A DNA stretch of 64,000 nt from Chitinophagales bacterium (GTDB lineage Bacteria > Bacteroidota > Bacteroidia > Chitinophagales > UBA10324). Positions within the stretch are counted from its first letter, which is position 1; each line of letters opens with the position of its first letter. This document shows, one piece after another, positions 21,046-53,928 of the stretch. The position numbers were made by a program, and so were the translations under genes. The notes beneath the pieces are model-generated. The model was not told where the DNA came from and ran no database searches. It was given only the letters and a program-made list of their open reading frames with translations. Location: the NCBI GenBank assembly GCA_019694975.1, contig JAIBAY010000007.1, positions 137,720 through 201,719 of the forward strand. The letters run 5' to 3'.

Positions 21046-22257
21046 CTAACCAATTGAAATATCCTGATTGTTAACTTCTGAACTCCCTTTTAATGATAAA
21101 GAGTTAGCACTGAATGGTTGACTTGTAGTTCCATCAATCATTAATTTCAAGTACATATTGTATCTGGGCAGATTAATGAAATCTTCTTTATTAAAAATAG
21201 GATAGAACTCCTTTTCCAAGATTTCAGCGTCCATTGCTCCTACTCGAAATGAGATAATAGTTCCCACGTTTCCGAAAATAGCTCCTCGAATACGTTCATC
21301 AATTTGCTCAATGTATTGGTGCGTGAGGAAAAGAGAAAGTCCGTACTTTCTTGCTTCAGCCAGTACATCAACGAAGGAAAGCGAAATGAAAGAATGCATT
21401 TCATCCACATAGAGATAAAAGGGTTTCCGGATATGTTCTAGTTGCGTTGCTCGATGCATTGCCGCAAGCTGAATCGAGGTCAGCAGAATGCTTCCAAGCA
21501 GCGAAGACGCATCTTCGCCAATCTCTCCTTTTGATAAGTTTACTATCAAAATCTTACCCTCATCCAATACCTGCTGAATTCGAATCCCCTTGGTCTTTTG
21601 ACCTACAATGTTTCGTAATGGAATGGAAGTAAGGAATAAACCAACTTTATTCAAAATTGGAGAAATAGCTTCTGAGCGAAACTGAGGTGAATATTTTTCA
21701 AATTCCTTGCTCCAAAACGATTTTGAAGCTGCGTTTTGAACATACAACAGCACATGGTTTCTGAAACCCATGTCGGTAAGTAAAGGCTGAATATCAAGAA
21801 GCGTAGCATCAGGGTATTCCATAAGTGTGAGCAAACAATAACGCAGGATATATTCAAGTCTTGGTCCCCACGATTCAGCCCATATCTTTTTGAAGGTTGA
21901 AATAAGGCCAGACGCAACCAAGTGATGATACTTTGGATGTACAGCATGCAAAGGGTTGAATGCAATTGGATGCTCTGAATCTGTGGCATTAAAGTATATG
22001 AGATCGCTCTTTCTTTCTTCGGGAATGTAGTTAAGTATGTCTCGCGCAATGTCTCCATGGGGGTCAATTATTCCGCAACCAATTCCTCGCTCAATATCAG
22101 AAATAGCCATATTCTCAAGGAGTGTTGACTTACCGGTTCCGCTCTTTCCGATAACATAAATATGCTGTAAGCGATCCTTGTCTTTAATACCAAAGCACTG
22201 CTTTTGACTGCGATAATTGGTGACGCCAATGGGTGTAATTTTAGAATGTTCATCCAT
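21046..22257 (-). CDS. VirD4/TraD-like conjugation ATPase (DUF87/TraM-recognition type)
   Basis: A 403-aa P-loop ATPase started at the ATG at 22257, which lies 33 bp downstream of a copy of the element's promoter motif. Walker A is IGKSGTGKST (about 36-45). GIIDPHGD follows, then LYVDEMHSFISLSFVDVLAEARKYG (Walker B) and LFLTHQYIEQID, typical of type IV coupling proteins and HerA-type helicases. Unlike full VirD4 it has no N-terminal membrane helices, so it may be a cytosolic DNA-pumping ATPase. A second coupling protein lies at 45728-47149. It diverges from the 70-aa protein/serine recombinase unit. Confidence 0.8.
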   Translation of the reverse strand: MDEHSKITPIGVTNYRSQKQCFGIKDKDRLQHIYVIGKSGTGKSTLLENMAISDIERGIGCGIIDPHGDIARDILNYIPEERKSDLIYFNATDSEHPIAFNPLHAVHPKYHHLVASGLISTFKKIWAESWGPRLEYILRYCLLTLMEYPDATLLDIQPLLTDMGFRNHVLLYVQNAASKSFWSKEFEKYSPQFRSEAISPILNKVGLFLTSIPLRNIVGQKTKGIRIQQVLDEGKILIVNLSKGEIGEDASSLLGSILLTSIQLAAMHRATQLEHIRKPFYLYVDEMHSFISLSFVDVLAEARKYGLSLFLTHQYIEQIDERIRGAIFGNVGTIISFRVGAMDAEILEKEFYPIFNKEDFINLPRYNMYLKLMIDGTTSQPFSANSLSLKGSSEVNNQDISIG

Positions 22258-22290
22258 ATAAAAACAATAGAGGTTTTTCTGATACAAAAC

Positions 22291-22318
22291 AGGAGGGAGA
22301 AAGGATGCTTTGTGGCAA
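22291..22318 (-). promoter_or_regulatory. Element promoter motif, copy 1 (minus strand)
   Basis: Reading the minus strand: TTGCCA, 12 nt, then TCTCCCTCCT, followed 22 nt from its end by a TATTGTTTT -7-like element near 22269. It lies 33 bp upstream of the VirD4-like start. It shares spacing with four other copies in the element and is divergent from copy 2. Confidence 0.6.
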
Positions 22319-22323
22319 ATAAG

Positions 22324-22351
22324 TGGCCTCCACCGGCAATTTTTCCCTCCT
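22324..22351 (+). promoter_or_regulatory. Element promoter motif, copy 2
   Basis: TGGCCT, 12 nt containing GGCAATT, then TTTCCCTCCT, 26 bp upstream of the 70-aa protein gene at 22378. The left half is less conserved than in the other copies, and the -7-like element is weak. Confidence 0.5.
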
Positions 22352-22377
22352 TCCACACAATGATTTTTTAAGTAAGA

Positions 22378-22590
22378 ATGAAAGAAGCTGAGAAGATTTT
22401 CAGCTTTCTTATGAACTTACAAGAAGACAACCCGAAATCAAAATTCATCTATACTGAGGAGCAATTGCAAAACATTTCCGAGCTCTGTGATGTGTTGCGA
22501 ACTATAAGAGCTCGCCTTATCCGGGAAGGAATTTCAATAGAGGAGGTAAGGAACGAGATTGCCAAGAAAAGAGGTGATGATACAATATAA
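22378..22590 (+). CDS. 70-aa protein preceding the serine recombinase; founder of a small two-member family
   Basis: A 70-aa, mostly helical, charged protein of unknown function. Its core EEQLQNISELCDVLRTIRARL aligns without gaps to a second short gene on the opposite strand at 24600-24779 (DKDLENVQDLCEVVVTIRARL). It is preceded by a promoter-motif copy and overlaps the start of the serine recombinase gene by 14 bp, so the two are co-transcribed and probably translationally coupled. It could be a recombination directionality or DNA-binding accessory, which is inference from position only. Confidence 0.6.
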   Translation: MKEAEKIFSFLMNLQEDNPKSKFIYTEEQLQNISELCDVLRTIRARLIREGISIEEVRNEIAKKRGDDTI

Positions 22591-24307
22591 GTGTATGTCA
22601 ATCGCTCTTGATAAAACATTTAAAAACCATTACCTACTCTACGCCAGAAAAAGTACAGATGACAAAGAGAATCAGAAAAACTCCTTGAGTTATCAAATCT
22701 CTGAAGGTTTAAAGTATGCAAAGGCAAATAAACTATCTATTGCCCAAATTACTATTCCTGGGTTTTCAACTATGGGCGAAATTAAAGAGAGGCACACCGG
22801 TTTTAAAGAGGATGAAGATTTCAGTATCAATGAAAACGGAACAGTGAGTTATAGAATTGAAAGACCAAAGTTTCACTGGCTTGTCAAATACTTAAAAGAA
22901 GGTTCTTTCAAAGGAGTAATATTTCTCTGCTGGGACAGAGCGAGCCGCAACAAGAATGATGATAGCCTGCTCAGAAAGCTCATGAATCAGTGCGACATTC
23001 ATTTTGTGCAAACTCAATATGATTATAAAAGTAGTTCCGGCCAACTACACATGGATATTGATGGAACGTTTGCGCAGCACTACTCCAGGGTAATGAGTGA
23101 AAAGATTCGAAACCAAAATAGAAAACTACGTGAGGAGGGAGCTTGTCTTTATAAGGCTCCTATTGGCTATTTGAATGAGGGTAACTCCCAACACAAACCA
23201 TTCGATCCTACAAGGGCACCTATTGTTAAGAACATTTTTGAAATGTATGCAGAAGGCACCTGGACCCTAAGAGAATTATCACAATGGGCTATCAAACAAG
23301 GTCTGACCATGCCACCGATTCGGAGAAAGCGTACTTCTGAGGAAATGCTTTCGGATGAGGAAATAGAAATAGAACCCAGTTGCCACCTCGCGACATACAA
23401 AAACATTCAATTTATTCTTACAAATCGTTTTTACATTGGTAAGATTCGAGATAAAGAAAACAATTGGCGGGATAGTATAAGCCATGAGCCTCTTATCTCC
23501 ACAGAACTGTTTTATCGCGTCCAGGACGTTCTCAAATCAAAAAAAGTGAGCGTGCACTACATAGAGAAGGCTTACTTCCCTTATCGCGGTATTGTGCGCT
23601 GTATGCACTGTAAACGCGTTTATACCCCATATGAGCAAAAAGGTATTCACTATTATGGTGTAAGGTGTGATAAACCATGCGAAAATCAAAAACGTAACAT
23701 ATCATCAAGGTTTATTGAAGAAATGGTAGGCCAAGCTCTGTGTGAATTGTCTTTTACCGAAGAAGAACTCGAGGAAATCAATTCTCGAAAAAACACAGAT
23801 CTACCAAGACTTGAAGAGAAACGTTTGAAAGAGTTGGACCAAAAAGAGTATCAAAAAAGGAAGTTAAGAGAAGACCTTGCCTATTTACACACAAATAAGT
23901 TGTCATTACTCAGAAGTTCTGTTTATACAACCGATGATTTCCTGGAAGAGGAAATTAAGTTAAATAAGGCCCTTGAGAATCTACAAATGGAAGAACAAGC
24001 TTCCGACATCGCAATGCACGAAGTAATCAATGATATCCTATTGCTTTCCGAACTACTAAAAGATGCTTATACTTTCTATTATAAAGCTAATTCAAATGAA
24101 AAACGGCTTCTAATTCAAAAAGTCTTTTCCGAACTTTTATTTGACGGAAATACGTTACAGTACAAGGCTAAAAATGGATTTAAGCTCCTTGAATCCCATT
24201 CTGTGTCATTGGGTGGAGACTATACCTGGATTTCCGAAGCTGTTAGATGTCACCAACTCATAAAGTGTAGCATAGAAGATTTAAAAAGTTTGTCACCACC
24301 AGACTAA
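22577..24307 (+). CDS. Large serine recombinase (site-specific integrase)
   Basis: About 576 aa. The resolvase-type catalytic domain begins with YLLYARKSTDD (catalytic Ser in YARKS) and continues with FLCWDRASRNKNDD and DGTFAQHYSRVMSEKI. A recombinase DNA-binding domain follows (about 190-330). A zinc-ribbon shows as CMHCKRVY...CDKPC (about residues 345-372), then a long coiled coil (about 390-500), the usual layout of large serine integrases. Start: ATG at 22577 behind GAGG, or ATG at 22595; an in-frame TTG at 22559 is less likely. This is the only clear integrase in the window and so the best candidate for moving the 21-49 kb element. Confidence 0.9.
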   Translation: MIQYKCMSIALDKTFKNHYLLYARKSTDDKENQKNSLSYQISEGLKYAKANKLSIAQITIPGFSTMGEIKERHTGFKEDEDFSINENGTVSYRIERPKFHWLVKYLKEGSFKGVIFLCWDRASRNKNDDSLLRKLMNQCDIHFVQTQYDYKSSSGQLHMDIDGTFAQHYSRVMSEKIRNQNRKLREEGACLYKAPIGYLNEGNSQHKPFDPTRAPIVKNIFEMYAEGTWTLRELSQWAIKQGLTMPPIRRKRTSEEMLSDEEIEIEPSCHLATYKNIQFILTNRFYIGKIRDKENNWRDSISHEPLISTELFYRVQDVLKSKKVSVHYIEKAYFPYRGIVRCMHCKRVYTPYEQKGIHYYGVRCDKPCENQKRNISSRFIEEMVGQALCELSFTEEELEEINSRKNTDLPRLEEKRLKELDQKEYQKRKLREDLAYLHTNKLSLLRSSVYTTDDFLEEEIKLNKALENLQMEEQASDIAMHEVINDILLLSELLKDAYTFYYKANSNEKRLLIQKVFSELLFDGNTLQYKAKNGFKLLESHSVSLGGDYTWISEAVRCHQLIKCSIEDLKSLSPPD

Positions 24308-24312
24308 TATAA

Positions 24313-24340
24313 TTGCCCTCTCTGGCAATTTCTCCTCCGT
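24313..24340 (+). promoter_or_regulatory. Element promoter motif, copy 3
   Basis: TTGCCC, 12 nt ending TGGCAATT, then TCTCCTCCGT. A TACACTTC -7-like element follows at 24363-24370, 22 nt downstream, only 6 bp before the ATG of the first XRE gene. This geometry would give a leaderless or nearly leaderless mRNA. Confidence 0.6.
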
Positions 24341-24376
24341 TCAAGTGATTACAAATTTTATTTACACTTCATTCAT

Positions 24377-24697
24377 ATGATCCCAAATAATTTAAAAGCA
24401 ATTCGAAAAGCATGTGGTCTAACACAAGTAGCAGTTGCTAAGAGATTAGGATTTCATAGTACGGATCGTATCTCCAAATGGGAGTACGGAACGATGTACC
24501 CGCACATGGTCAATCTTCTGAAGCTTTCAATCATCTATGACAAAAGACCAGAAGAGCTGTATCCAGAACTTCTGTTTAACCTCCGGCTTGAAATGACTCC
24601 TAAGCCTGTCTATTCTCCTGTTCCATCCTCTTCTCCTGAAGATACTTATCCAAAGCCTCTGCAGTCCCAAACTCTTCACAAATCAGACGTGCTCTGA
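24377..24697 (+). CDS. XRE-family HTH regulator (paralogue A)
   Basis: A 106-aa protein. Residues 1-65 are a Cro/CI-type HTH (LKAIRKACGLTQVAVAKRLGFHSTDRISKWEYGTMYP, quoted in part by its key turn TQVAVAKRLGF). It is paralogous to the 79-aa regulator at 26144-26383. The extra C-terminal ~35 residues are Pro/Ser-rich, low in complexity and read antisense through the minus-strand gene at 24600-24779, so the functional protein may be only the HTH part. Preceded by promoter-motif copy 3. The two XRE proteins are the natural candidates to bind the shared motif. Confidence 0.8.
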   Translation: MIPNNLKAIRKACGLTQVAVAKRLGFHSTDRISKWEYGTMYPHMVNLLKLSIIYDKRPEELYPELLFNLRLEMTPKPVYSPVPSSSPEDTYPKPLQSQTLHKSDVL

Positions 24698-24779
24698 TTG
24701 TAACTACGACTTCGCATAGATCCTGAACGTTCTCAAGGTCTTTGTCGGAGAAGAATCGACGTTCTTCTGGTATAAGCAA
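24600..24779 (-). CDS. Short paralogue of the 70-aa protein, non-ATG start or 5'-truncated
   Basis: A 59-codon minus-strand frame beginning at TTG (24779) just after an in-frame TAA at 24795-24797. Its product contains FFSDKDLENVQDLCEVVVTIRARL, clearly homologous to residues ~25-48 of the 70-aa protein at 22378-22590, including LC, TIRARL and an acidic tail. It overlaps the 3' end of the XRE A gene by 98 bp, tail to tail. No ATG is available in frame, so it is either TTG-initiated or an N-terminally truncated relic. Confidence 0.5.
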   Translation of the reverse strand: MLIPEERRFFSDKDLENVQDLCEVVVTIRARLICEEFGTAEALDKYLQEKRMEQENRQA

Positions 24780-24847
24780 ATGAATATTCTTTGCTTAGGA
24801 AAAAGCTTTGAATTGTAAGCCTCTCCTTAATTCTAACTATGTGGCAA

Positions 24848-25021
24848 TTAGATAATGCCTCTTCGTTTTACTACTTCATAGACACTAAGTCCCTGGTTCA
24901 ATTCTTCTGGTCCAATTATTCCTCTCCTAACGAGAATCTCACCTATAGACATAGTCTGTAATTCCTGGGCCGAGATAATTCCTCTTCGAACTAATTCGGC
25001 AGCAACTTGTTGATCGTTCAT
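24848..25021 (-). CDS. 57-aa protein with three tandem RRGII-type repeats
   Basis: A minus-strand ATG frame encoding 57 aa. Three near-repeats are visible: LVRRGIISAQEL, LVRRGIIGPEEL and VVKRRGII (end). Such short helix-turn units resemble the 'RGxITxEEL' segments at the N-termini of GspE/PilB-type proteins and of SHOCT-like tails, but this is a free-standing mini-protein. Codon use looks coding and the repeats argue against chance. Function unknown. It diverges from the 196-aa gene at 25084. Confidence 0.55.
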   Translation of the reverse strand: MNDQQVAAELVRRGIISAQELQTMSIGEILVRRGIIGPEELNQGLSVYEVVKRRGII

Positions 25022-25083
25022 AGTTTTTTTGCTAAAAATAGTTTAATAATTTGCATTTTACTATATAAAAAAGATACATACAA

Positions 25084-25674
25084 ATGTTAAAAAAGAATGG
25101 ATCCCTTGTTTTCAACGCGTCCCAGCATATTGAAAAACATAATGAAAACATGCGAGCAAGAAATATTGTTTGGAATAATCAAGCCATAAATTTTCAAGCT
25201 GATTATGTTAAAGGATGGTTAATTACAGATAAAAGAAATCGTGTAGATGCCTTTAAAATAAAACCTGAAACAATAAAAAGAACAGTGGTAGAATTTAGAT
25301 TAGGTAAATACGCTCCCATTTCCTCTCCGACTGAAAAGACAATAAACCAATTCCCCTTGGAGCCCATGTATAATTGTTTTGGATATTGCTTTGGGGATAG
25401 TGAGTACTTTATTCCTAATCCAACTCCGATAATACAAGATGAATATGAAATAGTACCAGAAATTGAGAAAGCAGAAATGATCATGCACGTCAATCACAAC
25501 GGCTTCAATGATCAGGGAGATGATATCTGGCAATATACTCACGGAATGATTCTAAATCTCAATGGGACTGTTTCTTTCAAACCAGGGTTCTGTAAATTGG
25601 AATCGGAAATTGCTTTTACACAGAGAAATACAATTTATAACTTTAACCATGAAGAATATCTTCGGAGAAGATGA
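25084..25674 (+). CDS. 196-aa protein, possible papain-like fold
   Basis: No signal peptide. I do not recognise the family with confidence. Sequence features: a YNCFGYCFGD motif (about residues 95-104) and a distal HGMILNLNGTVSFKPG (about 153-168). A Cys in an N-C-x-G-x-C-F context followed by H-G and an Asn/Asp strand is the order seen in papain/NlpC-like Cys-His folds (for example DUF7689-type proteins). A small intracellular Cys protease or inactive relative is therefore one possibility. It lies in the accessory part of the element, with no promoter-motif copy upstream. Confidence 0.5.
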   Translation: MLKKNGSLVFNASQHIEKHNENMRARNIVWNNQAINFQADYVKGWLITDKRNRVDAFKIKPETIKRTVVEFRLGKYAPISSPTEKTINQFPLEPMYNCFGYCFGDSEYFIPNPTPIIQDEYEIVPEIEKAEMIMHVNHNGFNDQGDDIWQYTHGMILNLNGTVSFKPGFCKLESEIAFTQRNTIYNFNHEEYLRRR

Positions 25675-25720
25675 TCTTTAGTTTCATTAAATTTATTGCA
25701 TGGCTTAAATTTGCCGACGC

Positions 25721-25927
25721 CTAATTTTTAGGATGTTTCTTTGAATGTACTCTCCTTCTCTTCAAGTACTTCTTTATCAGAAATTCGGTCAACTGAACTT
25801 TGTTAAGTTGTTCAAATTCTTCGAGCTCTTTTTCAGAGAGGTTATCAATCCATTTTAGTGCTTCTTTTCTTTTTTTTAAAGAAAGCTGCTTCATTGAATC
25901 TCTTAAGTCTTGTTTACGTGATGGCAT
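25721..25927 (-). CDS. 68-aa basic helical protein
   Basis: A minus-strand ATG frame with a strongly biased Lys/Glu/Leu composition (SLKKRKEALKWIDNLSEKELEEFEQL) and a basic tail (KKYLKRRRVHSKKHPKN). It reads as a helical, possibly nucleic-acid-binding mini-protein. No known family. Convergent with the 196-aa gene, with a 46-bp gap. Confidence 0.45.
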   Translation of the reverse strand: MPSRKQDLRDSMKQLSLKKRKEALKWIDNLSEKELEEFEQLNKVQLTEFLIKKYLKRRRVHSKKHPKN

Positions 25928-26082
25928 AAGAAAATACCTATAAATGATATGAGTAAAAACAAATAGCCCTCACCATCTAAGGTGGCTCGTAGAAAGACCT
26001 ATACGATATTTTAAGCTACTTGAATACAGCTTTGTAGCATGATCGCAAACTCGTGTCAATGATTATAAATACAATCAGAAGA

Positions 26083-26110
26083 TTGCCATATCTGTCAAAT
26101 TCTACCTCCT
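26083..26110 (+). promoter_or_regulatory. Element promoter motif, copy 4
   Basis: TTGCCA, 12 nt (TATCTGTCAAAT), then TCTACCTCCT. A perfect Bacteroidota -7 element TACGTTTG lies at 26132-26139, 21 nt beyond the motif and 4 bp before the ATG of XRE B, which again suggests a leaderless transcript. Confidence 0.65.
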
Positions 26111-26143
26111 TTCTTCTTTTCACCGCTATGCTACGTTTGATGT

Positions 26144-26383
26144 ATGGCAGATATTCCCAACAGTCTCAAAAAATATCGGCGAATTACCGGCTACACACAA
26201 AAGGAAGTTGCAAAGATTTTGGAATTTAAAAGTACCAGCCGAATTTCCAGATGGGAAAAAGGAGAAAGTATGCCTTCAGTAAAGAATCTTCTCAAACTCA
26301 GTTTTCTATATGCAACACTTCCTAATGACCTTTATTACGACCTATGGATGGAGGTTAGAAATAATCTGCGAAAGAAGAAATAA
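26144..26383 (+). CDS. XRE-family HTH regulator (paralogue B)
   Basis: A 79-aa Cro/CI-type HTH protein: SLKKYRRITGYTQKEVAKIL, then SRISRWEKGESMPSVKNLLKL. It is collinear with XRE A (24377-24697) through residue ~65 and ends in a short basic tail. Controlled from the clearest promoter-motif copy (number 4). It probably represses or activates motif-bearing promoters, perhaps including its own. Confidence 0.85.
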   Translation: MADIPNSLKKYRRITGYTQKEVAKILEFKSTSRISRWEKGESMPSVKNLLKLSFLYATLPNDLYYDLWMEVRNNLRKKK

Positions 26384-26573
26384 AATGGCATTCATAAAAT
26401 TACCATAACGATACATCACTGATCTTCTACCCTCAAAGCATTGATGCAGGAATGAAGAACAGAAAACTGAAAAGTTTTTTTACAGGGTAACAAACCTTGT
26501 GCGTGTTCCCCGTACTTCACGTTTTTCGGCGCAAAAAAATGAAAAAGCAACTCGCTCGCTCTAATCGAATCGA

Positions 26574-26595
26574 ATAATTTCTTTAAAGAAATTAT
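26574..26595. repeat. Perfect 22-bp palindrome
   Basis: ATAATTTCTTT / AAAGAAATTAT with no spacer, flanked by ATCGA-rich sequence that extends the symmetry imperfectly. It lies 49 bp upstream of the 80-aa gene at 26645. It may be a dimeric regulator operator. Confidence 0.5.
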
Positions 26596-26644
26596 ATCGA
26601 TCGAGTGAAAAGTTATTAACACAATTAACCATATTTATCAAATT

Positions 26645-26887
26645 ATGAGCACAGAATCAAATGCAGAAAATTATGAAAGCAAGTTTGCCTATGAACTGGC
26701 TAACGTATTAAATGATCATCAGTCCATCCAAGTCTATGTAAAATTTACTCAAAAATACAAGGAAGAGTTTTTACGGAAGATTCTACTTCGGGTAATGTCG
26801 ATACCGGATAACAAGATAAAGCGGACTCGGGGTGCCTTATTCACCTATCTTGTCAATCAACATGGCTTCGACCATTCTCGGAATTAG
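26645..26887 (+). CDS. 80-aa helical protein coupled to the RuvC-like gene
   Basis: An 80-aa protein with a good ATG start; no family recognised. Predicted helical (FAYELANVLNDHQSIQVYVKFTQKYKEEFLRKILLRVM) with a basic C-terminal half. Its 3' end overlaps the start of the RuvC-like gene by 26 bp, so the two are translated as a pair, suggesting joint function (for example, a DNA-binding partner). Confidence 0.6.
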   Translation: MSTESNAENYESKFAYELANVLNDHQSIQVYVKFTQKYKEEFLRKILLRVMSIPDNKIKRTRGALFTYLVNQHGFDHSRN

Positions 26888-27341
26888 CCCTGGAACGCGT
26901 ATAATGGGCCTTGGAGTGATTCAAAATGGTGAACTGGTGGAATGGCAGGTGAAGACCTTTAAAGGTTCCTGGTCGAAAGAAAAGCTGCGTCTCATTATAG
27001 ACAATATTCAAAGTATTAGTGATCATTTCAAAGTATCTGTCATAGCGTTAAAAGTCGTATCTCCACTTCGCACTTCGAAGAATTTATTGAATTTGACTAA
27101 AGGAATTATGGAAACAGCAGAGAAGAATAAAATCCGTCTTTCCAGGTTCACCGGTCAAGATCTAAAACTCAGGGCAGAACCTGCGGAAAAACATTCTAGC
27201 AGTGATTTGATGGAATTTGTATTAGACAAATATCCGGTACTGAAACGGGAATATTTAAAGGAAAGAAACAACCTGAATCCGTACTACTTCAAAATGTTTG
27301 AAGCGATTGCTGCGGCTCTGATTGCAGAAAGAACACGATAA
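26862..27341 (+). CDS. RuvC-like protein lacking catalytic residues
   Basis: A 159-aa protein started at the ATG at 26862. The N-terminus ILGISPGTRIMGLGVI is the RuvC signature I-L-G-I-D-P-G-x-R-x-x-G-x-G-V, with the first catalytic Asp replaced by Ser. The second block reads VIALKVVSPLRTSKNLLNLTKG, where RuvC has Glu (AIExVF) but this has Lys. The C-terminal helix (FKMFEAIAAAL) lacks the paired Asp residues of RuvC (DAxDALAVA). The Holliday-junction resolvase fold seems kept, but metal-dependent cleavage should be lost. It may bind branched DNA for the element. Confidence 0.75.
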   Translation: MASTILGISPGTRIMGLGVIQNGELVEWQVKTFKGSWSKEKLRLIIDNIQSISDHFKVSVIALKVVSPLRTSKNLLNLTKGIMETAEKNKIRLSRFTGQDLKLRAEPAEKHSSSDLMEFVLDKYPVLKREYLKERNNLNPYYFKMFEAIAAALIAERTR

Positions 27342-27351
27342 CTTATTTTTT

Positions 27352-27369
27352 TTGCCATAAGTGGCAAAT
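27352..27369 (+). promoter_or_regulatory. Half copy of the element motif (palindrome only)
   Basis: TTGCCATAAGTGGCAAAT matches the first 18 positions of the shared motif and is itself a near-perfect palindrome (TTGCCA / TGGCAA), but the CTCCCTCC tract is absent. It lies 73 bp upstream of the methyltransferase-like gene. Confidence 0.5.
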
Positions 27370-27442
27370 TTAGTAAGGGTATTCAACAGAAAAAATTTCA
27401 TGGGATCATGATAAAATTTTCATAAAGAAAAAACTGCTCTTT

Positions 27443-28165
27443 ATGAAAACAAAACAAACCTTCGAATCTCTCATGGATGAGTTTCAGGATCATTTTGATC
27501 TGCTCACTGTCTTTGATGATTTTTTAACTATCGCTATTGCACTCTGTGGAAGAAATCCACACACCGGGCGCTCATTTGATGAAACCCTATATCTATGTGT
27601 GATGGATAAGTACAAACATCATGACCTCCGATCTAACTTTCCTAAAATGCTTTCTACTCTTACCTTACAAGTGACTCAACGGATTGAAAGCAAGCAAGGA
27701 TGCGATATTCTGGGAGAGTATTATGAATCCAGATTGGCAAAGGAGAAACCATCTGAACTTTTTATTCCTTATCCAATTTCCAGATTCATGGCACGCAGTG
27801 CCATTAGAGATGCAGAAAAAGTGTTTCCTAAAACACGCTTTCAGATGCTTGATCCTGAATGTGGAAGTGGACGCATGTTACTTTCGATGGCTTTCGAAAG
27901 TCAAAAGAAGCATCACTACTTCGGCATTGACAGCAATCTCACATTTGTAAAAATGACGGTACTCAGTTTGTTTTTAAGCGGGGTTGTGAGTGCTGAAATC
28001 ATGTGCGCAGATGCCGATATTCCACATGACTTTAAGGGCAGTTACAAAATCAGTCTATGGCCGTACGGAATATTTCGACAAGAGGTTAAAGAGAAATCAC
28101 AATTGTGGCGGGTAGCAAATAGTACTGTTGTGCCTACTGAGATTAATAAGGTGTATCAAAATTGA
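27443..28165 (+). CDS. Degenerate N6-adenine methyltransferase-like protein
   Basis: A 240-aa protein. Residues ~100-200 form the start of a Rossmann methyltransferase: FIPYPISRFMARSAI, then motif I as LDPECGSGRMLLSMA (D-P-x-C-G-S-G, AdoMet-binding) and YFGIDSNLTFVKM. Where gamma-class adenine methyltransferases have the catalytic NPPY/F, this reads ISLWPYGIF. The chain ends soon after, so target recognition and catalytic motifs seem missing. It may be a pseudo-enzyme that binds AdoMet, or a regulator. Similar truncated methyltransferases occur in Bacteroidota conjugative elements next to ArdC genes. Confidence 0.7.
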   Translation: MKTKQTFESLMDEFQDHFDLLTVFDDFLTIAIALCGRNPHTGRSFDETLYLCVMDKYKHHDLRSNFPKMLSTLTLQVTQRIESKQGCDILGEYYESRLAKEKPSELFIPYPISRFMARSAIRDAEKVFPKTRFQMLDPECGSGRMLLSMAFESQKKHHYFGIDSNLTFVKMTVLSLFLSGVVSAEIMCADADIPHDFKGSYKISLWPYGIFRQEVKEKSQLWRVANSTVVPTEINKVYQN

Positions 28166-28246
28166 GTTTTCAATTTCCGAAGAATTTTAAAGCAATCGTC
28201 AACAACTGAGATTGCTTTTTTCTTTTTCAAATACCTCAACGAATAG

Positions 28247-28274
28247 TTTCCATATCTGGCAAATTCTCCCTCCT
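28247..28274 (+). promoter_or_regulatory. Element promoter motif, copy 5
   Basis: TTTCCA, 12 nt (TATCTGGCAAAT), then TCTCCCTCCT, with a TACTCTTTG -7-like element at 28297-28305, 22 nt from its end. It is 66 bp upstream of the ArdC-like gene. Confidence 0.6.
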
Positions 28275-28340
28275 TACTTATCGGGCTCTGAATCGATACT
28301 CTTTGAGTAGAACATTCTTTCACAATTAAATCTTTTACTC

Positions 28341-29243
28341 ATGAACAACACAACCACAGAAAAGCGGGATGTGTACACCATTGTAACCGACCGCATCATT
28401 GAACTACTTAAACAAGGCACCATCCCCTGGAAGAAACCATGGGCAGAAGCCGGCATCCCACAAAATCTTATTTCCCGCAGAGTGTATCGCGGCCTCAATG
28501 TCATGCTCTTAGCATCACTCGGGTATGAACAGAACTATTTTCTCACCTACTCCCAAATCAAAGAATTAGGAGCATCGGTTAAGAAGGATGAAAAGTCCTA
28601 TCCAGTAGTCTATTGGAATTGGGTAGAACCAAAGCAAGAAGAGGGAGAAATATTGAACAGTAAGAAGTACCCATTTCTCCGGTATTACAACGTTTATAAC
28701 GTTGCTCAATGCACCGGGATTCCGCCTGAAAAAATTCCTGTAGTAACTCGGCAAGCATATCCGATTCAGGCCTGCGAACATATTATCGAGAATATGCCAT
28801 CAAAGCCGAAAATAACCCAGAAAGAGGCTAAGGCATATTACAATCCGCTTCTGGACTTCATTAACATGCCCAAGATGGGCACATTCTCAAGTAATGAAAG
28901 TTACTATGCTACACTCTTTCATGAACTGGTCCATAGCACAGGTCACTTAACAAGACTTAATCGCAAAGGGCTGTTGGAGATGACTGAGTTTGGTTCACCA
29001 CCATATTCATTTGAAGAGTTGGTGGCTGAAATAGGTGCCTGCTATCTGGAATCGCTGACCGGAATTGCTGAGAAGCAAATCGATAACAATGTTGCTTACA
29101 TCAGTGGGTGGTTAGACAAACTGGAAAATGATGATCACTTCATTGTACTTGCCAGTTCTCAAGCGCAAAAGGCAGTGGATTATATTCTTGGGCAACAGTT
29201 TGAAGTGAAAGAAGAAATGGCCGAGCAAAATGGTGTGGAGTAA
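28341..29243 (+). CDS. ArdC-like antirestriction protein (ssDNA-binding domain plus zincin-like peptidase)
   Basis: A 300-aa protein. The N-terminal ~125 residues match the ArdC/DUF1738 ssDNA-binding domain (IIELLKQGTIPWKKPWAEAGIPQNLISRRVYRGLN in outline). The C-terminal half contains the zincin motif HELVHSTGH (about residues 194-202) and FEELVAEIGACYL. ArdC proteins protect incoming single-stranded plasmid DNA and are carried by conjugative elements. It is the last gene of the motif-controlled group and is followed by a terminator at 29264-29290. Confidence 0.88.
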   Translation: MNNTTTEKRDVYTIVTDRIIELLKQGTIPWKKPWAEAGIPQNLISRRVYRGLNVMLLASLGYEQNYFLTYSQIKELGASVKKDEKSYPVVYWNWVEPKQEEGEILNSKKYPFLRYYNVYNVAQCTGIPPEKIPVVTRQAYPIQACEHIIENMPSKPKITQKEAKAYYNPLLDFINMPKMGTFSSNESYYATLFHELVHSTGHLTRLNRKGLLEMTEFGSPPYSFEELVAEIGACYLESLTGIAEKQIDNNVAYISGWLDKLENDDHFIVLASSQAQKAVDYILGQQFEVKEEMAEQNGVE

Positions 29244-31539: not shown

Positions 31540-34500
31540 ATGCTTGACAAAATCATAAAATTCTCCATTTACAATAAAGGAGTAATCGGGTTCTTTACCG
31601 CCTTGCTCGTTATTGCGGGCATTTACTCAGCAACTCAATTGCCTATTGATGCCGTTCCCGACATAACAAATAACCAGGTGCAGGTAATGACACTTGCACC
31701 CACGCTTGGCGCACAGGAAGTGGAGCAATTCATTACCGTACCCATCGAACTGTCATTAGGAAACATTCCTCACGTTATTGAAAAACGCTCAATATCCCGT
31801 TCAGGTATTTCTGTAATTACTATCGTGTTCAAAGATGCTACTGATATATTCTGGGCGCGGCAGCAGATTTCAGAACGATTAAAGGAAGCCGAGGAACAAA
31901 TTCCCAAAGGCATGGCAACACCCATGCTTGCGCCTATAACAACAGGGCTTGGAGAAATTTATCATTATGTGATTCATGCAAAACCCGGCTTTGAAAATAA
32001 ATACAGCGCTACCGACCTGCGTACAATGCAGGACTGGATTGTAAAACGCCAGCTTTCAGGCACAGAAGGTCTTGCAGAAGTGAGCGGTTGGGGAGGTTTT
32101 GTAAAAACGTATGAGATAGCCATTGACAATGATAAAATAAATGCGCTCAACATAACCATTCCCGAAATATATCATGCGCTTGAAGTCAACAATGAAAACA
32201 CAGGCGGTTCTTATATTGAGCAATACGGCAATGCATATTTTATCCGCGGATTGGGCTTGGTAAAATCATTGGAGGACATTGAAAAAATTGTTGTTAAAAC
32301 TGTAAATGATGTTCCTCTTTTGATTCGTGACATAGCTATTGTACAGTTTGGCGCTACAACCCGGATGGGAGCCATAACCCGCAATGGCGAAGGTGAAGCG
32401 GTTGCCGGAGTTACGCTTATGCTCAAAGGTGAAAATTTCAGTAAAGTGATTAGTCACGTAAAAGAACGGATGGTGCAGATTCAAAAATCCCTGCCCGAAG
32501 GAGTAATAATTGAGCCTTTCATTGACCGCACAGAATTAGTTGGAAGAGCGATGGGCACAGTTGAAAAAAATCTTATTGAAGGGGCACTGATTGTAATATT
32601 TATTCTTGTGCTTTTACTTGGAAATTTAAGAGCAGGTTTATTAGTGGCATCAGTAATTCCTTTGTCCATGCTCTTTGCCATTTCAATGATGAAGCTTTTT
32701 GGGGTATCTGGTAACCTTATGAGTTTAGGTGCAATTGATTTCGGGTTGATAGTGGATGGAGCCGTAATAATTGTAGAAAGTGTTGTGCATCGTTTGCATA
32801 CTTCACGGCAAGCAGGGAAAGATATAATTACCCAAAAAGAAATGAACGAAACCGTATTTCATTCTGCATCCGGCATGATGAACAGCGCCACATTCGGTCA
32901 AATAATTATCATCATTGTTTATCTTCCTATTCTTACACTGGTTGGCATTGAAGGAAAAATGTTTCGCCCGATGGCAGAAACGGTTGCCTTTGCAATTATA
33001 GGGGCGCTGCTCCTTTCACTTACCTATGTTCCCATGATGGCATCGCTGGTATTAAGTAAAAGCAAAAAAGCAGAACACAAAAAAAACATCAGCGATAAAA
33101 TAATGGACTTTTTGCACCGCATATATGCGCCTTTGCTTGGTTTTGCAATGCGACAAAAAATTGCAGTAGTGATTGTTTCAGTCGCCTTATTTATTGCAAC
33201 CATTTTCACATTCACACGGTTAGGCGGTGAATTTATTCCCACCCTTGATGAAGGAGACCTTACCGTAGAAATAAGCATGATGCAGGGAGCTTCATTAACT
33301 CAGGTAGTAGAAACATTTGGTAAGGCTGAAAAAATTCTGAAAGCAAAATTTCCGGAAATAAAACAAATCGTTACACGAATCGGAAGCGCAGAAATTCCAA
33401 CCGATCCCATGCCAATCGAAAGAGGCGATATGATGGTTTCCATGAAGCCAAAAGAAGAATGGACAAGTGCTGAAACGCGGGAAGAAATGATGGAAAAAAT
33501 GGAAGAAGAATTATCTGTCCTTCCCGGAATCAATAAAGAAATTACGCAACCCATGCAAATGCGTTTTAATGAATTAATGACAGGAATAAGGCAGGACGTA
33601 GCGATTAAAATATTCGGTGATGATTTAGATACGCTTGTACAACGGGCAAATTTAATTGCACAATGGATAACGCCTGTGGAAGGTGTGAGCGAAGCCATTG
33701 TTGAAAAGGTAACGGGCTTACCGCAGATTGTTGTAGAGTACGACCGTGACAGGATAGCACAATATGGCTTAAATATAGAGGATATAAACATGATTCTGAA
33801 AACAGCATTTGCAGGGAACGTTGCCGGAGTTGTATTTGAAGGTGAAAAAAGATTTGACATGGTGGTTAGGTTACAGCAGGATTTGCGGAAGGATATATCG
33901 GACATTGAAAACCTGTATGTGCCTTTGCCAAATGGTAAAAAAATTCCATTAAACCAGGTTGCACATATTGAATATAAAACTGCACCGGGACAAATCTCAC
34001 ATGAAGATGCAAGACGAAGGATTTATGTCGGCTTCAATGTAAGAGGCAGAGATGTGGAAACTGTAGTGGAAGATATTCAAAAAATTCTATCAGAAAAATT
34101 AAAACTACCTGCCGGATATTATGTTACCTATGGAGGTCAGTTTCAAAATCTCAAAGAAGCTGAAAAACGATTGTCATTAGCCGTGCCTGCTGCATTGGCA
34201 CTTATTTTAGTTTTGCTTTATTTAACCTTTCGCTCTGTAAAGGAAATGTTAATCATATTTACTGCAGTACCGCTTTCTGCTATCGGTGGAGTATATGCAT
34301 TATGGTTGCGCGATATGCACTTCAGCATTTCCGCAGGAGTAGGTTTTATCGCCTTGTTTGGTGTAGCTGTATTAAATGGAATCGTATTAATTGCGTACTT
34401 CAATCAGTTGGAAAAGGAAGGAGTTACAGATATTTATGAGCGAGTAAAAAAAGGAACGCAGGTAAGGTTGCGACCCGTTATTATGACCGCAGCAGTTGCA

Positions 34501-35916
34501 TCACTTGGTTTTTTACCAATGGCTCTTTCAAGCGGTGCAGGTGCCGAAGTTCAAAAGCCACTTGCTACAGTTGTAATTGGTGGTCTCATATCAGCAACAT
34601 TGCTTACACTAATAGTCATTCCGGTTTTATACATTTTGTTTTCAAGAAGAAAAAAACTAAAACCTTCACTTGCCTCTGCTCATATTCTCTTTCTTGCTTT
34701 AGCTGTTTTCTTTAGTACCGGAAAAGCAAATGCACAGGACCATCAGGCTCTTTCCCTAGATGATTGCATAAAGATTGCAGTGGAAAACAATTCTGAAATG
34801 AAAATTGCAACATTGGAAACGAAGCAATTTAAAGCACTGCAAAAAACTGCATTTGATATTGAAAAAACAGACATTACAATAATGCAGGATGCCACCGATG
34901 GAGGAAGTTCTGATAATAGTTGGGTTATATCGCAGCGTTTTGAATTTCCAACGGTATATACTGCGCAAAAGAAATTGGCTAAAGCAGAAACAAAACTCAG
35001 TGAGCAATCGGCAGAGGTAAAACATAATTATTTAATAAAGGAAGTAAAGATTGTTTATTACGCACAACTATATTTGATTGAAAAATTACGCATACTCCAG
35101 GCGCAGGATAGTTTGTACAGTGACTTTTCACGCATAGCAAATGTGAGATTTGCAACAGGCGAATCTTCTAATCTCGAAAAAATAGTTGCATCCAACAGGT
35201 ATCGGGAAATTCAATTACAAAAACAGCAGGCAGAAGTTGAAGCATTGATAAATAATAAAAAATTACAGCAACTACTCAATGTAAATTATACGATCACTAT
35301 TGCTGAAACCAAGCTCCCTAAATTAATCGAAAACTTTTCGCCAGATAGCAGCGCATTAGCTTCTTATCCGCTTCTTAATTTTTACAGGCAACAGGTAACA
35401 GTCCAATCAGTTAAAGCAAATGTTGAGAAAAATAAATTCCTTCCTGATATTTTTGGGAGCTACTACCATCAGTATATCCTTTCATCTTTTAATCCTGCAA
35501 GTATTGAACGGAATTATTTTCCCGGCACACGCGTAGGAGGTTTTGAGTTGGGAATATCAATACCATTGTTTTTTAATACGCAGAGAGGCATGGTTCAGCA
35601 CGCAGAATTAGGTGGGCAAATAGCACAGGAGCAGCTAAAGCAGGCTGAACTTCAATTGCAAACCAATTATTATGCTCAGTATCAAAATTATTTACGGCTG
35701 TTCGATGCAATTAACTATTATCAGGGTAGCGGCTTGCCGGAATCGCAGGAATTACTCAGAACATCACAGGTAGCATATATTAATGGCGAAATAGGATATG
35801 TGGAGTTTATACAAAACACTTCTCAGGCTGCCGAAACACAATTACGCTATTTTGAATTACTCAATCAATACAATGAATCTGTAATTACTCTTACCCATTT
35901 TACACCATCAAAATAA
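31540..35916 (+). CDS. cusA: CusA/CzcA heavy-metal RND pump fused to a TolC-like outer-membrane domain
   Basis: A 1458-aa fusion. Residues ~1-1035 are a heavy-metal-efflux RND permease: DFGLIVDGAVIIVESVVHR in TM4 holds the proton-relay acidic residues, GGEFIPTLDEGDLTVE opens the second porter half, and LNGIVLIAYFNQLEKEG lies in TM10-11. After a second signal-like helix (ILFLALAVFFSTGKANAQ, ~1048-1065), residues ~1070-1458 form a TolC-type efflux domain rich in coiled coils (SLDDCIKIAVENNSEM). The fusion is common in Bacteroidota. It exports Cu/Ag or Zn/Co/Cd; the exact ion is not decidable from sequence. Ends 2 bp before cusB. Confidence 0.93.
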   Translation: MLDKIIKFSIYNKGVIGFFTALLVIAGIYSATQLPIDAVPDITNNQVQVMTLAPTLGAQEVEQFITVPIELSLGNIPHVIEKRSISRSGISVITIVFKDATDIFWARQQISERLKEAEEQIPKGMATPMLAPITTGLGEIYHYVIHAKPGFENKYSATDLRTMQDWIVKRQLSGTEGLAEVSGWGGFVKTYEIAIDNDKINALNITIPEIYHALEVNNENTGGSYIEQYGNAYFIRGLGLVKSLEDIEKIVVKTVNDVPLLIRDIAIVQFGATTRMGAITRNGEGEAVAGVTLMLKGENFSKVISHVKERMVQIQKSLPEGVIIEPFIDRTELVGRAMGTVEKNLIEGALIVIFILVLLLGNLRAGLLVASVIPLSMLFAISMMKLFGVSGNLMSLGAIDFGLIVDGAVIIVESVVHRLHTSRQAGKDIITQKEMNETVFHSASGMMNSATFGQIIIIIVYLPILTLVGIEGKMFRPMAETVAFAIIGALLLSLTYVPMMASLVLSKSKKAEHKKNISDKIMDFLHRIYAPLLGFAMRQKIAVVIVSVALFIATIFTFTRLGGEFIPTLDEGDLTVEISMMQGASLTQVVETFGKAEKILKAKFPEIKQIVTRIGSAEIPTDPMPIERGDMMVSMKPKEEWTSAETREEMMEKMEEELSVLPGINKEITQPMQMRFNELMTGIRQDVAIKIFGDDLDTLVQRANLIAQWITPVEGVSEAIVEKVTGLPQIVVEYDRDRIAQYGLNIEDINMILKTAFAGNVAGVVFEGEKRFDMVVRLQQDLRKDISDIENLYVPLPNGKKIPLNQVAHIEYKTAPGQISHEDARRRIYVGFNVRGRDVETVVEDIQKILSEKLKLPAGYYVTYGGQFQNLKEAEKRLSLAVPAALALILVLLYLTFRSVKEMLIIFTAVPLSAIGGVYALWLRDMHFSISAGVGFIALFGVAVLNGIVLIAYFNQLEKEGVTDIYERVKKGTQVRLRPVIMTAAVASLGFLPMALSSGAGAEVQKPLATVVIGGLISATLLTLIVIPVLYILFSRRKKLKPSLASAHILFLALAVFFSTGKANAQDHQALSLDDCIKIAVENNSEMKIATLETKQFKALQKTAFDIEKTDITIMQDATDGGSSDNSWVISQRFEFPTVYTAQKKLAKAETKLSEQSAEVKHNYLIKEVKIVYYAQLYLIEKLRILQAQDSLYSDFSRIANVRFATGESSNLEKIVASNRYREIQLQKQQAEVEALINNKKLQQLLNVNYTITIAETKLPKLIENFSPDSSALASYPLLNFYRQQVTVQSVKANVEKNKFLPDIFGSYYHQYILSSFNPASIERNYFPGTRVGGFELGISIPLFFNTQRGMVQHAELGGQIAQEQLKQAELQLQTNYYAQYQNYLRLFDAINYYQGSGLPESQELLRTSQVAYINGEIGYVEFIQNTSQAAETQLRYFELLNQYNESVITLTHFTPSK

Positions 35917-45727: not shown

Positions 45728-47149
45728 ATGATGCAATTCCTTATAGAGCTGTTTAACATCGTCACCCTGGTTATTGCAGAAATATCACAGGGCATATTTG
45801 ATGGTATCATCTCACTTTTTCCGGAAGAGCGAAAGACCCGGTATGACGCTGATTTCGGATCAGTAAGCGACACACTCTTCAAATCAGGAAACGGATTTTC
45901 AGTAACTGGAAGCAGATTCCTGTCTCTGGAAGACAGTTTTTCTCACATGGTGTGCTTTGGTGGCAGTGGATCCCGAAAATCAAACTCCATTATCATCCCA
46001 ACAGTTCTGAATGCGCGAAATGTTTCGATGGTGATACATGATCCATCTAAGGAGGTATTTTTCAAAACAGCTTTGGCGAAAAGTAGAGAAGGATTCAAGA
46101 TTAAAGTGTTGGATTATAACACGCCCGAAAAATCTGAAGGTTTCAATGCGTTGGCCAAGTGTCAAACGTATTCAGATGTGCACAAGCTGGCCAGTGTGCT
46201 TGTGAGAAATACCATCGAACATTCATCAGACCCATTCTGGAATAAAAGCGCAGAAACCTTGATTGCTCTCTTTGCAACCTATTTGATCAAATACGCTAAA
46301 CCTGAACACAAAAATTTTTCGAGTGTTCTTGCGATGGTTCAAAAGTTTAGTTATGACGCAAAAAAGTTAGATGTGTTAATGGTGAAAACACATGATCAAC
46401 AATTAATTGATCAGTATAAAACCTTTGTTGCGTATCCGGATAAAACTTTAATGAGTGTCGTGGCCACTGCAATTACCGCTTTATCAATTTTTGTTAGTGA
46501 AAGTTTGGCAAAGGTTACTTCTTTTAATACCATTGAGTTTGACGAATTCAGAACGCATCCTACCATTCTTTACATCTGCAACTCAGCAAAAGACGCAGAA
46601 TTCTATCGTGGTATGAGTGCTATTTTCTTTGAATCCTTTTGGGGTTCAATTTTGAATACTATACCAAGTAAAAATGAATACCCAATTCTCTTTCTCATAG
46701 ATGAAGCATCGTCAATGAAGATTGGATCATTGGCTTCATCGGTAGCCCTACTTCGGAAGCATGCTAGTGCCATTCTTCTTATCTACCAAGATTATAGGCA
46801 ACTGGAAAATCTTTACGGCTCGTACCAGGCATCCAACATAGTAGCCAACTGCGCTACCAGGTTATATATGCCAAACCAACCTATTGAAATTTGTAAAATG
46901 CTCGAAACAGTTTTAGGAAAATATCAATATGAAGATGAGAAGATACTTCGGACACGAGAGTTGCTCACTGCCTCTGAAATAAGGCAATTGAATGAGTCTA
47001 TCATTTTGTTTAAGAATACAGCACCACTCCGAGCTAAGATGCGGCCATACTACGAAACCCTGCGGTTTAAAAGGCTCACGGAACTTGGTGCATACCAAGT
47101 TGAGAATAAGATTCCATTTACATCTCTTCCAGTAATTCAATTTGATTAA
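45728..47149 (+). CDS. traG: TraG/VirD4-type coupling protein
   Basis: A 473-aa P-loop ATPase. The N-terminus is a membrane-facing helix (LIELFNIVTLVIAEISQGI). Walker A region CFGGSGSRKSNSIIIPTVL (about residues 77-96) has Arg where the second Gly of GxxxxGKS is expected. MVIHDPSKEVFFKTA follows, then Walker B LFLIDEASSMKIG and ILLIYQDYRQLENLYG, typical of type IV coupling proteins that bring relaxase-bound DNA to a secretion channel. It is followed by the MobC-like gene after 3 bp. Confidence 0.85.
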   Translation: MMQFLIELFNIVTLVIAEISQGIFDGIISLFPEERKTRYDADFGSVSDTLFKSGNGFSVTGSRFLSLEDSFSHMVCFGGSGSRKSNSIIIPTVLNARNVSMVIHDPSKEVFFKTALAKSREGFKIKVLDYNTPEKSEGFNALAKCQTYSDVHKLASVLVRNTIEHSSDPFWNKSAETLIALFATYLIKYAKPEHKNFSSVLAMVQKFSYDAKKLDVLMVKTHDQQLIDQYKTFVAYPDKTLMSVVATAITALSIFVSESLAKVTSFNTIEFDEFRTHPTILYICNSAKDAEFYRGMSAIFFESFWGSILNTIPSKNEYPILFLIDEASSMKIGSLASSVALLRKHASAILLIYQDYRQLENLYGSYQASNIVANCATRLYMPNQPIEICKMLETVLGKYQYEDEKILRTRELLTASEIRQLNESIILFKNTAPLRAKMRPYYETLRFKRLTELGAYQVENKIPFTSLPVIQFD

Positions 47150-47152
47150 TCG

Positions 47153-47719
47153 ATGCGGGCTGTTAAAAAGAAGAGTTCCCTCTACTCCTTTCTTGACGCT
47201 TCAGGTGTCCTGGCAACCGGCAGTGAAGAAGAAATTCTTAAAAGCAAAAAACTATACTACAAAGAATACAAACGAATCTGGCGTAAAGAGAAACGGAAAA
47301 CTGAAAAGGAGTTTACATTGTCTTTTACAAATGCTGAGTTCAAACTGATTACGGAGGCAGCCAGAAAGCATAAAATGAGTCGTACAAAATATATAAAACG
47401 AACGACGATTTGGCATATGTCGCAGGTCTACATAGTGCCAGATATAGTTGAAGTACGACGAATCAGTCAGTGGCTGGGAATGCATTACAATCTAATAGCT
47501 CAAATGATTGATGATGAAAAAATATCATCTCAATTAGGAAATTCATTACTCAGAAAAATAGAAGAAATCGAGCACCAAGTGCTCATCCACTTATGTAATC
47601 CAGACACTTTAGAAGACTGGATTAATCGAGAAGTGAAGAAGAATCCAGATTTGAAAGAAAAAATTCTTCGATTGCTTACTACAATCTCATCCGATGGTGC
47701 TCAAAAGCCTCACACGTAA
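47153..47719 (+). CDS. mobC: MobC-like relaxosome accessory protein (ribbon-helix-helix)
   Basis: A 188-aa protein with a basic N-terminus and a ribbon-helix-helix-like core, FTLSFTNAEFKLITEAARKH followed by KMSRTKYIKRTT (about 60-92). The HYNLIAQMIDDEK element is typical of MobC proteins (usual 'xxNLNQIARxxN'). MobC binds oriT and helps the relaxase. It overlaps the relaxase gene by 26 bp, a standard mobC-mobA arrangement. Confidence 0.8.
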   Translation: MRAVKKKSSLYSFLDASGVLATGSEEEILKSKKLYYKEYKRIWRKEKRKTEKEFTLSFTNAEFKLITEAARKHKMSRTKYIKRTTIWHMSQVYIVPDIVEVRRISQWLGMHYNLIAQMIDDEKISSQLGNSLLRKIEEIEHQVLIHLCNPDTLEDWINREVKKNPDLKEKILRLLTTISSDGAQKPHT

Positions 47720-48722
47720 ATCACCAAGCACTCGACAGTTATTAAGTTATCTCACTGAGAAAAAAGAAAAACTGATTGGAGACAAGCAAACTCCAATCCT
47801 TATTCGACATAATATTCGATCCAGAAGTCTGGATAAGATTGTCAAAGAATTTGACCACAACGAAACCTTCAGATTACACCGGCGTAAGGATAACGTCCGG
47901 GTATACCATACGATACTTTCCTTCTCAAACAGGGACCGTCAGCATATCAATGAGAAAATGCTTCGTGATATTGCGAAGCAACACATGAAATTGCGAGGCA
48001 ATAACAATATGTACCTCGGCGTGGCACATTACGACAAATCTCATGTTCACCTACACCTCGTGATGTCCGGTACTAAATATCTCACCGGCGAATCCAATAG
48101 GCTATCCCGAAAGGAATTTCACGAACTAAAACTGGCAATGGATTTATACCAGAAACAGCGGTACCCGGAACTCATCCACAGTTTACCTCGGCATGGTAGA
48201 TCACAAAAATTGAAGGAAGCGCAACGTGAGCCGGAACCAACTAGAGGTAATTCCCGTGAATCTCAAAAGGACACCTTACAGCAAATTCTTGAAGAAGCCT
48301 ACGCCAAATCAAAGTCGCGGGACGACTTTATAAACCACTTGAAATCGCATAACCATGTGGTCTATTTCCGAAATGGCCGATTACAAGGGGTGAAATTTGA
48401 AGGTGACAGAAAATTTAGATTCAGTAGGCTCGGGTATGATAAAGATAAACTAGAGAAGCTTGATGCCCTTCGCATCAATGAAGAAAAGAACCTGGAAGAC
48501 TTACGGGAGCTTAGAGCCTCTCGGACTTTAGAGCGTGACCAGGAGAAAGAAAAAAGCGACCAAGATGATGACAGGTTCGATTTAGAAAAGGATATTGATT
48601 CCGATGAAGAGGAAGTTAAAAATGAAGAAGCCCCCGAAGTAGAGGAGGAAACTGATGACACTGGTTCAGATGATGACTCCGTTGAGGAGCTATCAGATGA
48701 AGCAGATGACATCTATCAGTAA
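47694..48722 (+). CDS. mobA: Relaxase (MobA/VirD2-type, MOBP-like) with acidic C-terminal tail
   Basis: A 342-aa protein. The three-His metal motif is AHYDKSHVHLHLV (H112, D114, H117, H119, H121). A candidate catalytic Tyr is Y19 in LLSYLTEKK. A basic linker (~165-200) is followed by a domain (~205-265, EEAYAKSKSRDDFINHLKSHN) also seen in Bacteroides MobA proteins. The last ~65 residues are extremely Glu/Asp-rich (EEEVKNEEAPEVEEETDD). It nicks oriT and pilots the single strand through a type IV system. No transfer-channel genes are in the window, so the element is mobilisable rather than self-transmissible as seen here. Confidence 0.88.
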   Translation: MVLKSLTRKSPSTRQLLSYLTEKKEKLIGDKQTPILIRHNIRSRSLDKIVKEFDHNETFRLHRRKDNVRVYHTILSFSNRDRQHINEKMLRDIAKQHMKLRGNNNMYLGVAHYDKSHVHLHLVMSGTKYLTGESNRLSRKEFHELKLAMDLYQKQRYPELIHSLPRHGRSQKLKEAQREPEPTRGNSRESQKDTLQQILEEAYAKSKSRDDFINHLKSHNHVVYFRNGRLQGVKFEGDRKFRFSRLGYDKDKLEKLDALRINEEKNLEDLRELRASRTLERDQEKEKSDQDDDRFDLEKDIDSDEEEVKNEEAPEVEEETDDTGSDDDSVEELSDEADDIYQ

Positions 48723-53781: not shown

Positions 53782-53928
53782 ATGTCTGTTAATAACTACG
53801 CTTGGTTATCCAACTCGCAGGAAATATTGAAGCCATGAGTATAACTTTGAGAGGATATGCAATTGCGTAGTATTATGAATAAGCAAAGTTTGGTGTGCAA
53901 ACTGTGTGCAAATAATTAATATTTCTAG
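53726..53928. other. Intergenic region between defence operon and tRNA-Lys
   Basis: No gene. It holds the repeats just described and a TGTGCAAA direct repeat (about 53893-53913, GTGTGCAAA-ctg-TGTGCAAA) 16 bp from the 3' end of the tRNA gene. This is the likeliest place for a right-hand boundary of the mobile element, but no matching second copy was found. Confidence 0.4.

Follow-up and report, generated by a model that had tools for sequence, protein, structure and literature searches.

A 28-bp motif recurs ahead of genes of a mobile element in the window, the 64,000-nucleotide stretch of Chitinophagales DNA analysed here, and raises the question of what it does and which protein reads it. 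The original prediction was an element-specific promoter in which a C-rich tract replaces the -33 box, or which overlaps an XRE operator.

Results

The composite motif is essentially confined to the element

The motif copies are real and lie in the sequence where they were first reported. The full pattern, TTGCCA-N12-TCTCCCTCCT with up to three mismatches, is present 4 times in the window, where chance predicts 0.34; none of 100 shuffles reached 4. The palindrome by itself has 17 matches in the window (12.8 expected, not significant) and was rejected as a signal on its own, its count not being above chance. Pattern searches of the whole 4.3 Mb genome, again with up to three mismatches, return 13 full matches, 4 of them inside the element. 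Both exact matches fall in the element, and those outside it are scattered singles with 2-3 mismatches. The full pattern is essentially confined to the element. An exact sub-motif, sought in 100 relatives, is present only in this element because operators differ between elements.

Promoters and genes in the window

By Pfam, the genes downstream of the copies encode the proteins that had been named for them: a TrwB/TraG-like ATPase, a serine recombinase, two HTH_3 (XRE) proteins and ArdC. Motif scans place the C tract of the VirD4 promoter, TTTCTCCCTCCT, at 22291..22302 (-); the palindrome upstream of it is degenerate, with a TTTGCCA half site only. Its -7/-10-like box, CTATTGTTT, lies at 22262..22270 (-) with the T of TA at 22269, and the ATG at 22257, 12 nt past the TA, is predicted to begin a leaderless mRNA. 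The promoter implies this ATG as the start of the VirD4/TrwB-like ATPase gene (21046..22257, -; Pfam PF10412, 2.8e-10), for which the ORF call ran from an upstream GTG to 22356. The copy at 22324..22351 (+), ahead of the recombinase unit, has a good tract (TTTTTCCCTCCT), an imperfect palindrome and no -7 box at the usual distance. The large serine recombinase itself (22559..24307, +; Pfam Resolvase and Recombinase) is a probable member of the regulon.

The XRE-A promoter comprises a putative XRE operator palindrome with halves TTGCCCTC and TCTGGCAA (24313..24328, +), a C tract (24328..24339, +) and a TACACT box whose T, at 24363, is 14 nt ahead of the ATG at 24377. The regulator gene occupies 24377..24697 (+; Pfam HTH_3, 3.7e-10; profile A1). 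At XRE-B, the putative operator (halves TTGCCATA and TCTGTCAA; 26083..26098, +) is followed by the tract ATTCTACCTCCT (26099..26110, +) and the -7 box TACGTTTG (26132..26139, +); the ATG, 12 nt on at 26144, again predicts a leaderless mRNA for the regulator gene (26144..26383, +; Pfam HTH_3, 1.8e-11). The ArdC promoter has a putative operator with halves TTTCCATA and TCTGGCAA (28247..28262, +), the tract ATTCTCCCTCCT (28263..28274, +) and a TACTCT box with its T at 28297; here 44 nt separate the TA from the ATG of the anti-restriction gene (28341..29243, +; Pfam ArdcN and MPTase-PolyVal). A perfect palindrome, TTTTGCCATAAGTGGCAAAT, stands without a C tract at 27350..27369 (+), between the RuvC-like and methylase genes; in one related locus (L078) a full site is located after the RuvC-like gene.

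The -7-like element that had been ascribed to four copies is present in all except 22324(+), with spacers of 20-22 nt between tract block and box. The degenerate palindromes of the 22291(-) and 22324(+) copies, which belong to VirD4 and the recombinase, and the lack of a properly spaced -7 box at the latter count against reading the set as an XRE regulon.

Related elements and their gene content

Relatives of XRE-B occur in 21 of 299 genomes of the order. A search of the class with profile A1, built from eleven XRE-B relatives, found further ones, and a VirD4 search adds hosts such as Flavipsychrobacter, Emticicia and Mucilaginibacter; plasmid and viral collections yielded no close relatives of XRE-B. 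Many loci repeat a neighbourhood of VirD4-like ATPase, recombinase, XRE-A, XRE-B, an 80-aa protein, RuvC-like nuclease, methylase and ArdC. The 80-aa protein (26645-26887, +) matches nothing in Pfam or NCBIfam. Many elements conserve it in the interval from XRE-B to the RuvC-like gene, and a single-sequence model of low confidence (pLDDT 60) makes it all-helical.

Relatives of the VirD4-like ATPase with 52-58% identity (loci L113-L182) are abundant in Patescibacteria (CPR) contigs, where no XRE of the present family was found adjoining. In the window, a second, canonical TraG/VirD4-type coupling protein is encoded downstream together with a MobA/VirD2-like relaxase (45728-48722, +), so the ATPase at 21046 may serve another role. 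The element may extend in the direction of the tRNA-Lys at 53928. A 1458-aa ORF (31540-35916, +), by its translation a heavy-metal RND pump apparently fused to an outer-membrane efflux protein, is probable cargo. At 50248-52536 (-), one protein combines Prok-E2_A, ThiF (E1) and JAB domains and resembles ubiquitin-like conjugation proteins of some anti-phage systems.

The promoter layout is conserved across elements

XRE-A and XRE-B homologues in other Bacteroidota elements show the same layout. A two-block model (tract and -7 box) was trained on 51 XRE upstream regions from Bacteroidota elements (profile E below 1e-12) and gives a mean score of 15.5, compared with 10.1-11.0 for eight shuffled sets fitted in the same way. 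Tract and -7 box stand 20-22 nt apart in 42 of the 51 regions. In 33 regions the ATG, which the model did not use, follows the TA by 12-14 nt; in about a third of the set the layout is unclear.

Alignment of 53 promoters (XRE, VirD4, ArdC and Rec genes) on the TA of the -10-like box places TACnnT at -12 to -7, its T, A and T invariant partly because the model selects them. A C-rich block spans -41 to -36, with C(-40) in 87% and C(-36) in 91%, and is followed by T(-35) in 85%, T(-34) in 79% and A(-33) in 55%; further upstream, A stands at -47 in 87%. The palindrome centre, where callable (27 of 32 cases), is 41.5-42 bp upstream of T(-12), at about -53.5. The C tract runs into CTTA at -36 to -33 and thus sits between the operator and the -33 box. 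It only abuts the -33 region from upstream and does not replace the -33 box, as had been proposed. On balance, much of the original interpretation is supported. The wider claim of an element-specific promoter is backed by the comparative evidence from the XRE upstream model, the sites of other elements and the alignment.

Genes beyond the training set carry the same sites. The ArdC promoter, absent from training, is the top model site of the whole window (score 23.9), followed by XRE-B, XRE-A and VirD4. In the element set, which includes the window, sites scoring at least 16 precede ArdC genes in 54% of cases (n = 24) and VirD4 genes in 27% (n = 22), compared with 2% of 193 control ORFs. In the same set, scores in the 220 nt directly ahead of recombinase, RuvC-like and 80-aa genes are near background; single strong sites are found ahead of Rec in loci L083 and L106.

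The tract is conserved near -35 and the -10-like box deviates from TAnnTTTG, as would suit an alternative sigma factor that reads the C tract and TACnnT, the palindrome being the site of a separate regulator. However, tract and -7 box without the operator are at chance, both in the element's own genome (7 matches compared with 4 control matches, a single one of the 7 falling inside the element) and in 395 genomes of the class (42 among the matches listed against about 75 in the reversed control, three of the 42 in these elements). There is no excess in either search of the kind that an ECF-type signature common to host genes would give, which makes a host alternative sigma factor unlikely. In addition, the tract lies mostly upstream of the position of sigma region 4, and XRE-B carries the full TACGTTTG box. 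We consider this explanation quite improbable.

The operator varies between elements and the C tract is kept

Palindromes are alike within an element: GTATC...GGATA in L118, TCTAC..GTAGA in L106, TTTACCAT..ATGGTAAA in L108 and L109, TTTG..CAAA in L083 and L078, and TTGCCA..TGGCAA in the window element. Within-element similarity is 9.55 against 8.08 of 18 (p = 0.0002). The spacers between tract and -7 box show no within-element similarity (p = 0.28). Sharing of palindromes but not of spacers excludes simple duplication. A short sequence that recurs by chance, or that was recently copied inside the element, could explain why palindromes alone do not exceed expectation in the window. For the composite motif this reading is barely credible: the motif exceeds all shuffles, its spacers differ within an element, and about 50 promoters belonging to other elements keep its geometry, so that only an artefact in the comparative set could rescue the idea.

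Every element retains the C tract, although the tract has some element-specific flavour (p = 0.0002), so an element-encoded protein may read the tract. The suggestion that the motif overlaps an XRE operator is borne out in part: comparison supports the operator, but operator and tract are separate parts, the palindrome varying between elements where the tract is kept. By sequence matches, the XRE proteins belong to the HTH class of ImmR, P22 C2 and C.AhdI, with C.BclI also among the matches. Distances between XRE recognition helices and between operators correlate weakly (r = 0.16, p = 0.02; partial p = 0.064), and this correlation, together with the element-specific palindromes, fits an operator that would be read by the cognate XRE.

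A single-stranded, Frpo-like hairpin promoter active on incoming conjugative DNA might also be expected where palindromes accompany transfer genes and an anti-restriction gene. The folds of five copies are mostly unremarkable, however (z from +1.2 to -2.7), and have no common structure that would place tract and -7 box in a stem; such a promoter is highly improbable.

Two further sequence features were observed. A DnaA-box-like TTWTCCMCA (up to one mismatch) adjoins the upstream side of the operator at 16 of 39 XRE promoters, against 1.5 expected (loci include L083, L092, L088, L118, L080, L078, L090 and L132). It is found mainly at XRE-B-type promoters (11 of 20), is absent from the XRE-B promoter of the window, and a link to replication or DnaA is possible. 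In other Bacteroidota (L026, L027, L028, L042, L036), genes of a different XRE family have TTGCCA-like palindromes upstream, followed by a conserved GTCTACGAT-like stretch and no C tract.

Leaders and start codons

Across elements, start codons lie 12-14 nt after the TA for VirD4 and 37-48 nt after it for ArdC, which points to two leader classes kept across elements. The sigma-A box of Flavobacterium spans -12 to -5 (PMC9723704); by this measure the ATGs of XRE and VirD4 genes would fall at +1 to +3 and their mRNAs, with the ATG 12-14 nt after the TA, are probably leaderless. The predicted ArdC leader is about 40 nt. Leaderless transcription, expected for several copies, is thus predicted for VirD4, XRE-A and XRE-B, is not predicted for ArdC and finds no support at the 22324 copy. 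Leaderless mRNAs make up 5.5% of mRNAs in F. psychrophilum (PMC9723704), and 5' UTRs shorter than 10 nt only about 3.7% in B. thetaiotaomicron (PMC7366714).

Discussion

At the level of sequence, these comparisons establish the promoter architecture, its conservation, the regulon membership of XRE, ArdC and VirD4 genes and the element-specific operator. With moderate confidence, we propose that the motif copies are promoters of an element-encoded XRE regulon, in which an XRE dimer on the palindrome probably activates its own gene and others. A dimer of XRE-A, XRE-B or both would bind the palindrome, whose centre lies about 53.5 bp ahead of the predicted start, and would probably help host RNA polymerase on a weak core promoter, which has no TTTG at -33 and only TACnnT at -12 to -7. 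The conserved C tract at -41 to -36 would be part of the docking surface. The XRE genes would thereby control themselves; the VirD4-like ATPase and ArdC, and probably the recombinase unit too, would be turned on together. We infer binding of the palindrome by XRE, activation in place of repression, the sites at which transcription starts and what the C tract does. Activation is favoured by where the operator lies (near -53.5), by the constant phase that it keeps with the -7 box and by the weakness of the core promoter; fixed phase and a position upstream of the core promoter fit a bacterial activator.

The same regulon and operator could instead serve a repressor, the promoters being active on entry into a cell without XRE and shut as XRE accumulates. 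XRE proteins of the ImmR, P22 C2 and C.AhdI HTH class are often repressors, the closest solved relatives of the XRE proteins include the repressors ImmR and P22 C2, and ArdC and the methylase would be useful on entering a new host. Yet the operator lies outside the core promoter, at a fixed distance from the -7 box that a repressor would not need, and the core promoter looks weak. Repression seems to us rather unlikely. For activation by XRE, we tentatively suggest a further step: the C tract (CCYYCC at -41 to -36, with TTA following) may represent a novel promoter element, functional only in concert with an XRE dimer next to it. This would create a two-part activation site driving leaderless mRNAs, with the operator half free to evolve and the tract fixed.

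The family of Bacteroidota mobile elements that uses this promoter block is widespread and apparently undescribed; among open papers, no description of the XRE regulon was found. The block provides a sequence signature for the control circuit of these elements and predicts which genes are turned on together as the element moves. Through this block, genes for transfer and for protection can probably be turned on jointly by the element. Variation of the operator against a fixed C tract makes operator-swap experiments possible. The promoters also offer a natural set of predicted leaderless mRNAs in a phylum where such mRNAs are rare and Shine-Dalgarno sites are absent.

Comparison with known systems

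The circuits of lambda cI, P22 C2 and ICEBs1 ImmR resemble the XRE promoters in HTH fold family (by sequence), in a palindromic operator of about 16-18 bp and in a regulator encoded on the element that it controls. The lambda cI mRNA is leaderless. Relative to the class II position of lambda cI, the XRE operator is shifted upstream by roughly one helical turn. Unlike these phage-type circuits, the XRE promoters have one operator each and a C tract, and nothing points to divergent switch regions with several operators.

Bacteroidota sigma-A promoters (TAnnTTTG at -7, TTTG at -33) share with the family the TA at -12/-11 and the T at -7. A full match to TAnnTTTG is found only at XRE-B (TACGTTTG), whereas the family consensus is TACnnT without TTTG. 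The TTTG near -33 is absent from the family, which instead has CTTA at -36 to -33 with the C tract and operator upstream; the -33 box is also missing in some members of the phylum (PMC7366714).

Promoters of the C proteins C.PvuII, C.Esp1396I and C.AhdI likewise combine a small HTH_3 regulator with an operator upstream of its own gene. The PvuII C protein activates its own synthesis from a leaderless regulator transcript (PMC2997769), and in Esp1396I the distal C-protein dimer recruits the sigma subunit (PMC4041747). C-protein promoters, however, have two adjacent operators, OL and OR, whereas the XRE promoters have one palindrome and a C tract in the place of the second operator. Among the element proteins scanned with Pfam there is no restriction endonuclease, only an N6-methylase-like protein, and the XRE regulon, unlike C-protein systems, is spread over several promoters of a mobile element. 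The missing second operator and restriction gene place the XRE circuit outside the C-protein class; by analogy, the C-protein circuit is nevertheless the closest working model for the XRE promoters.
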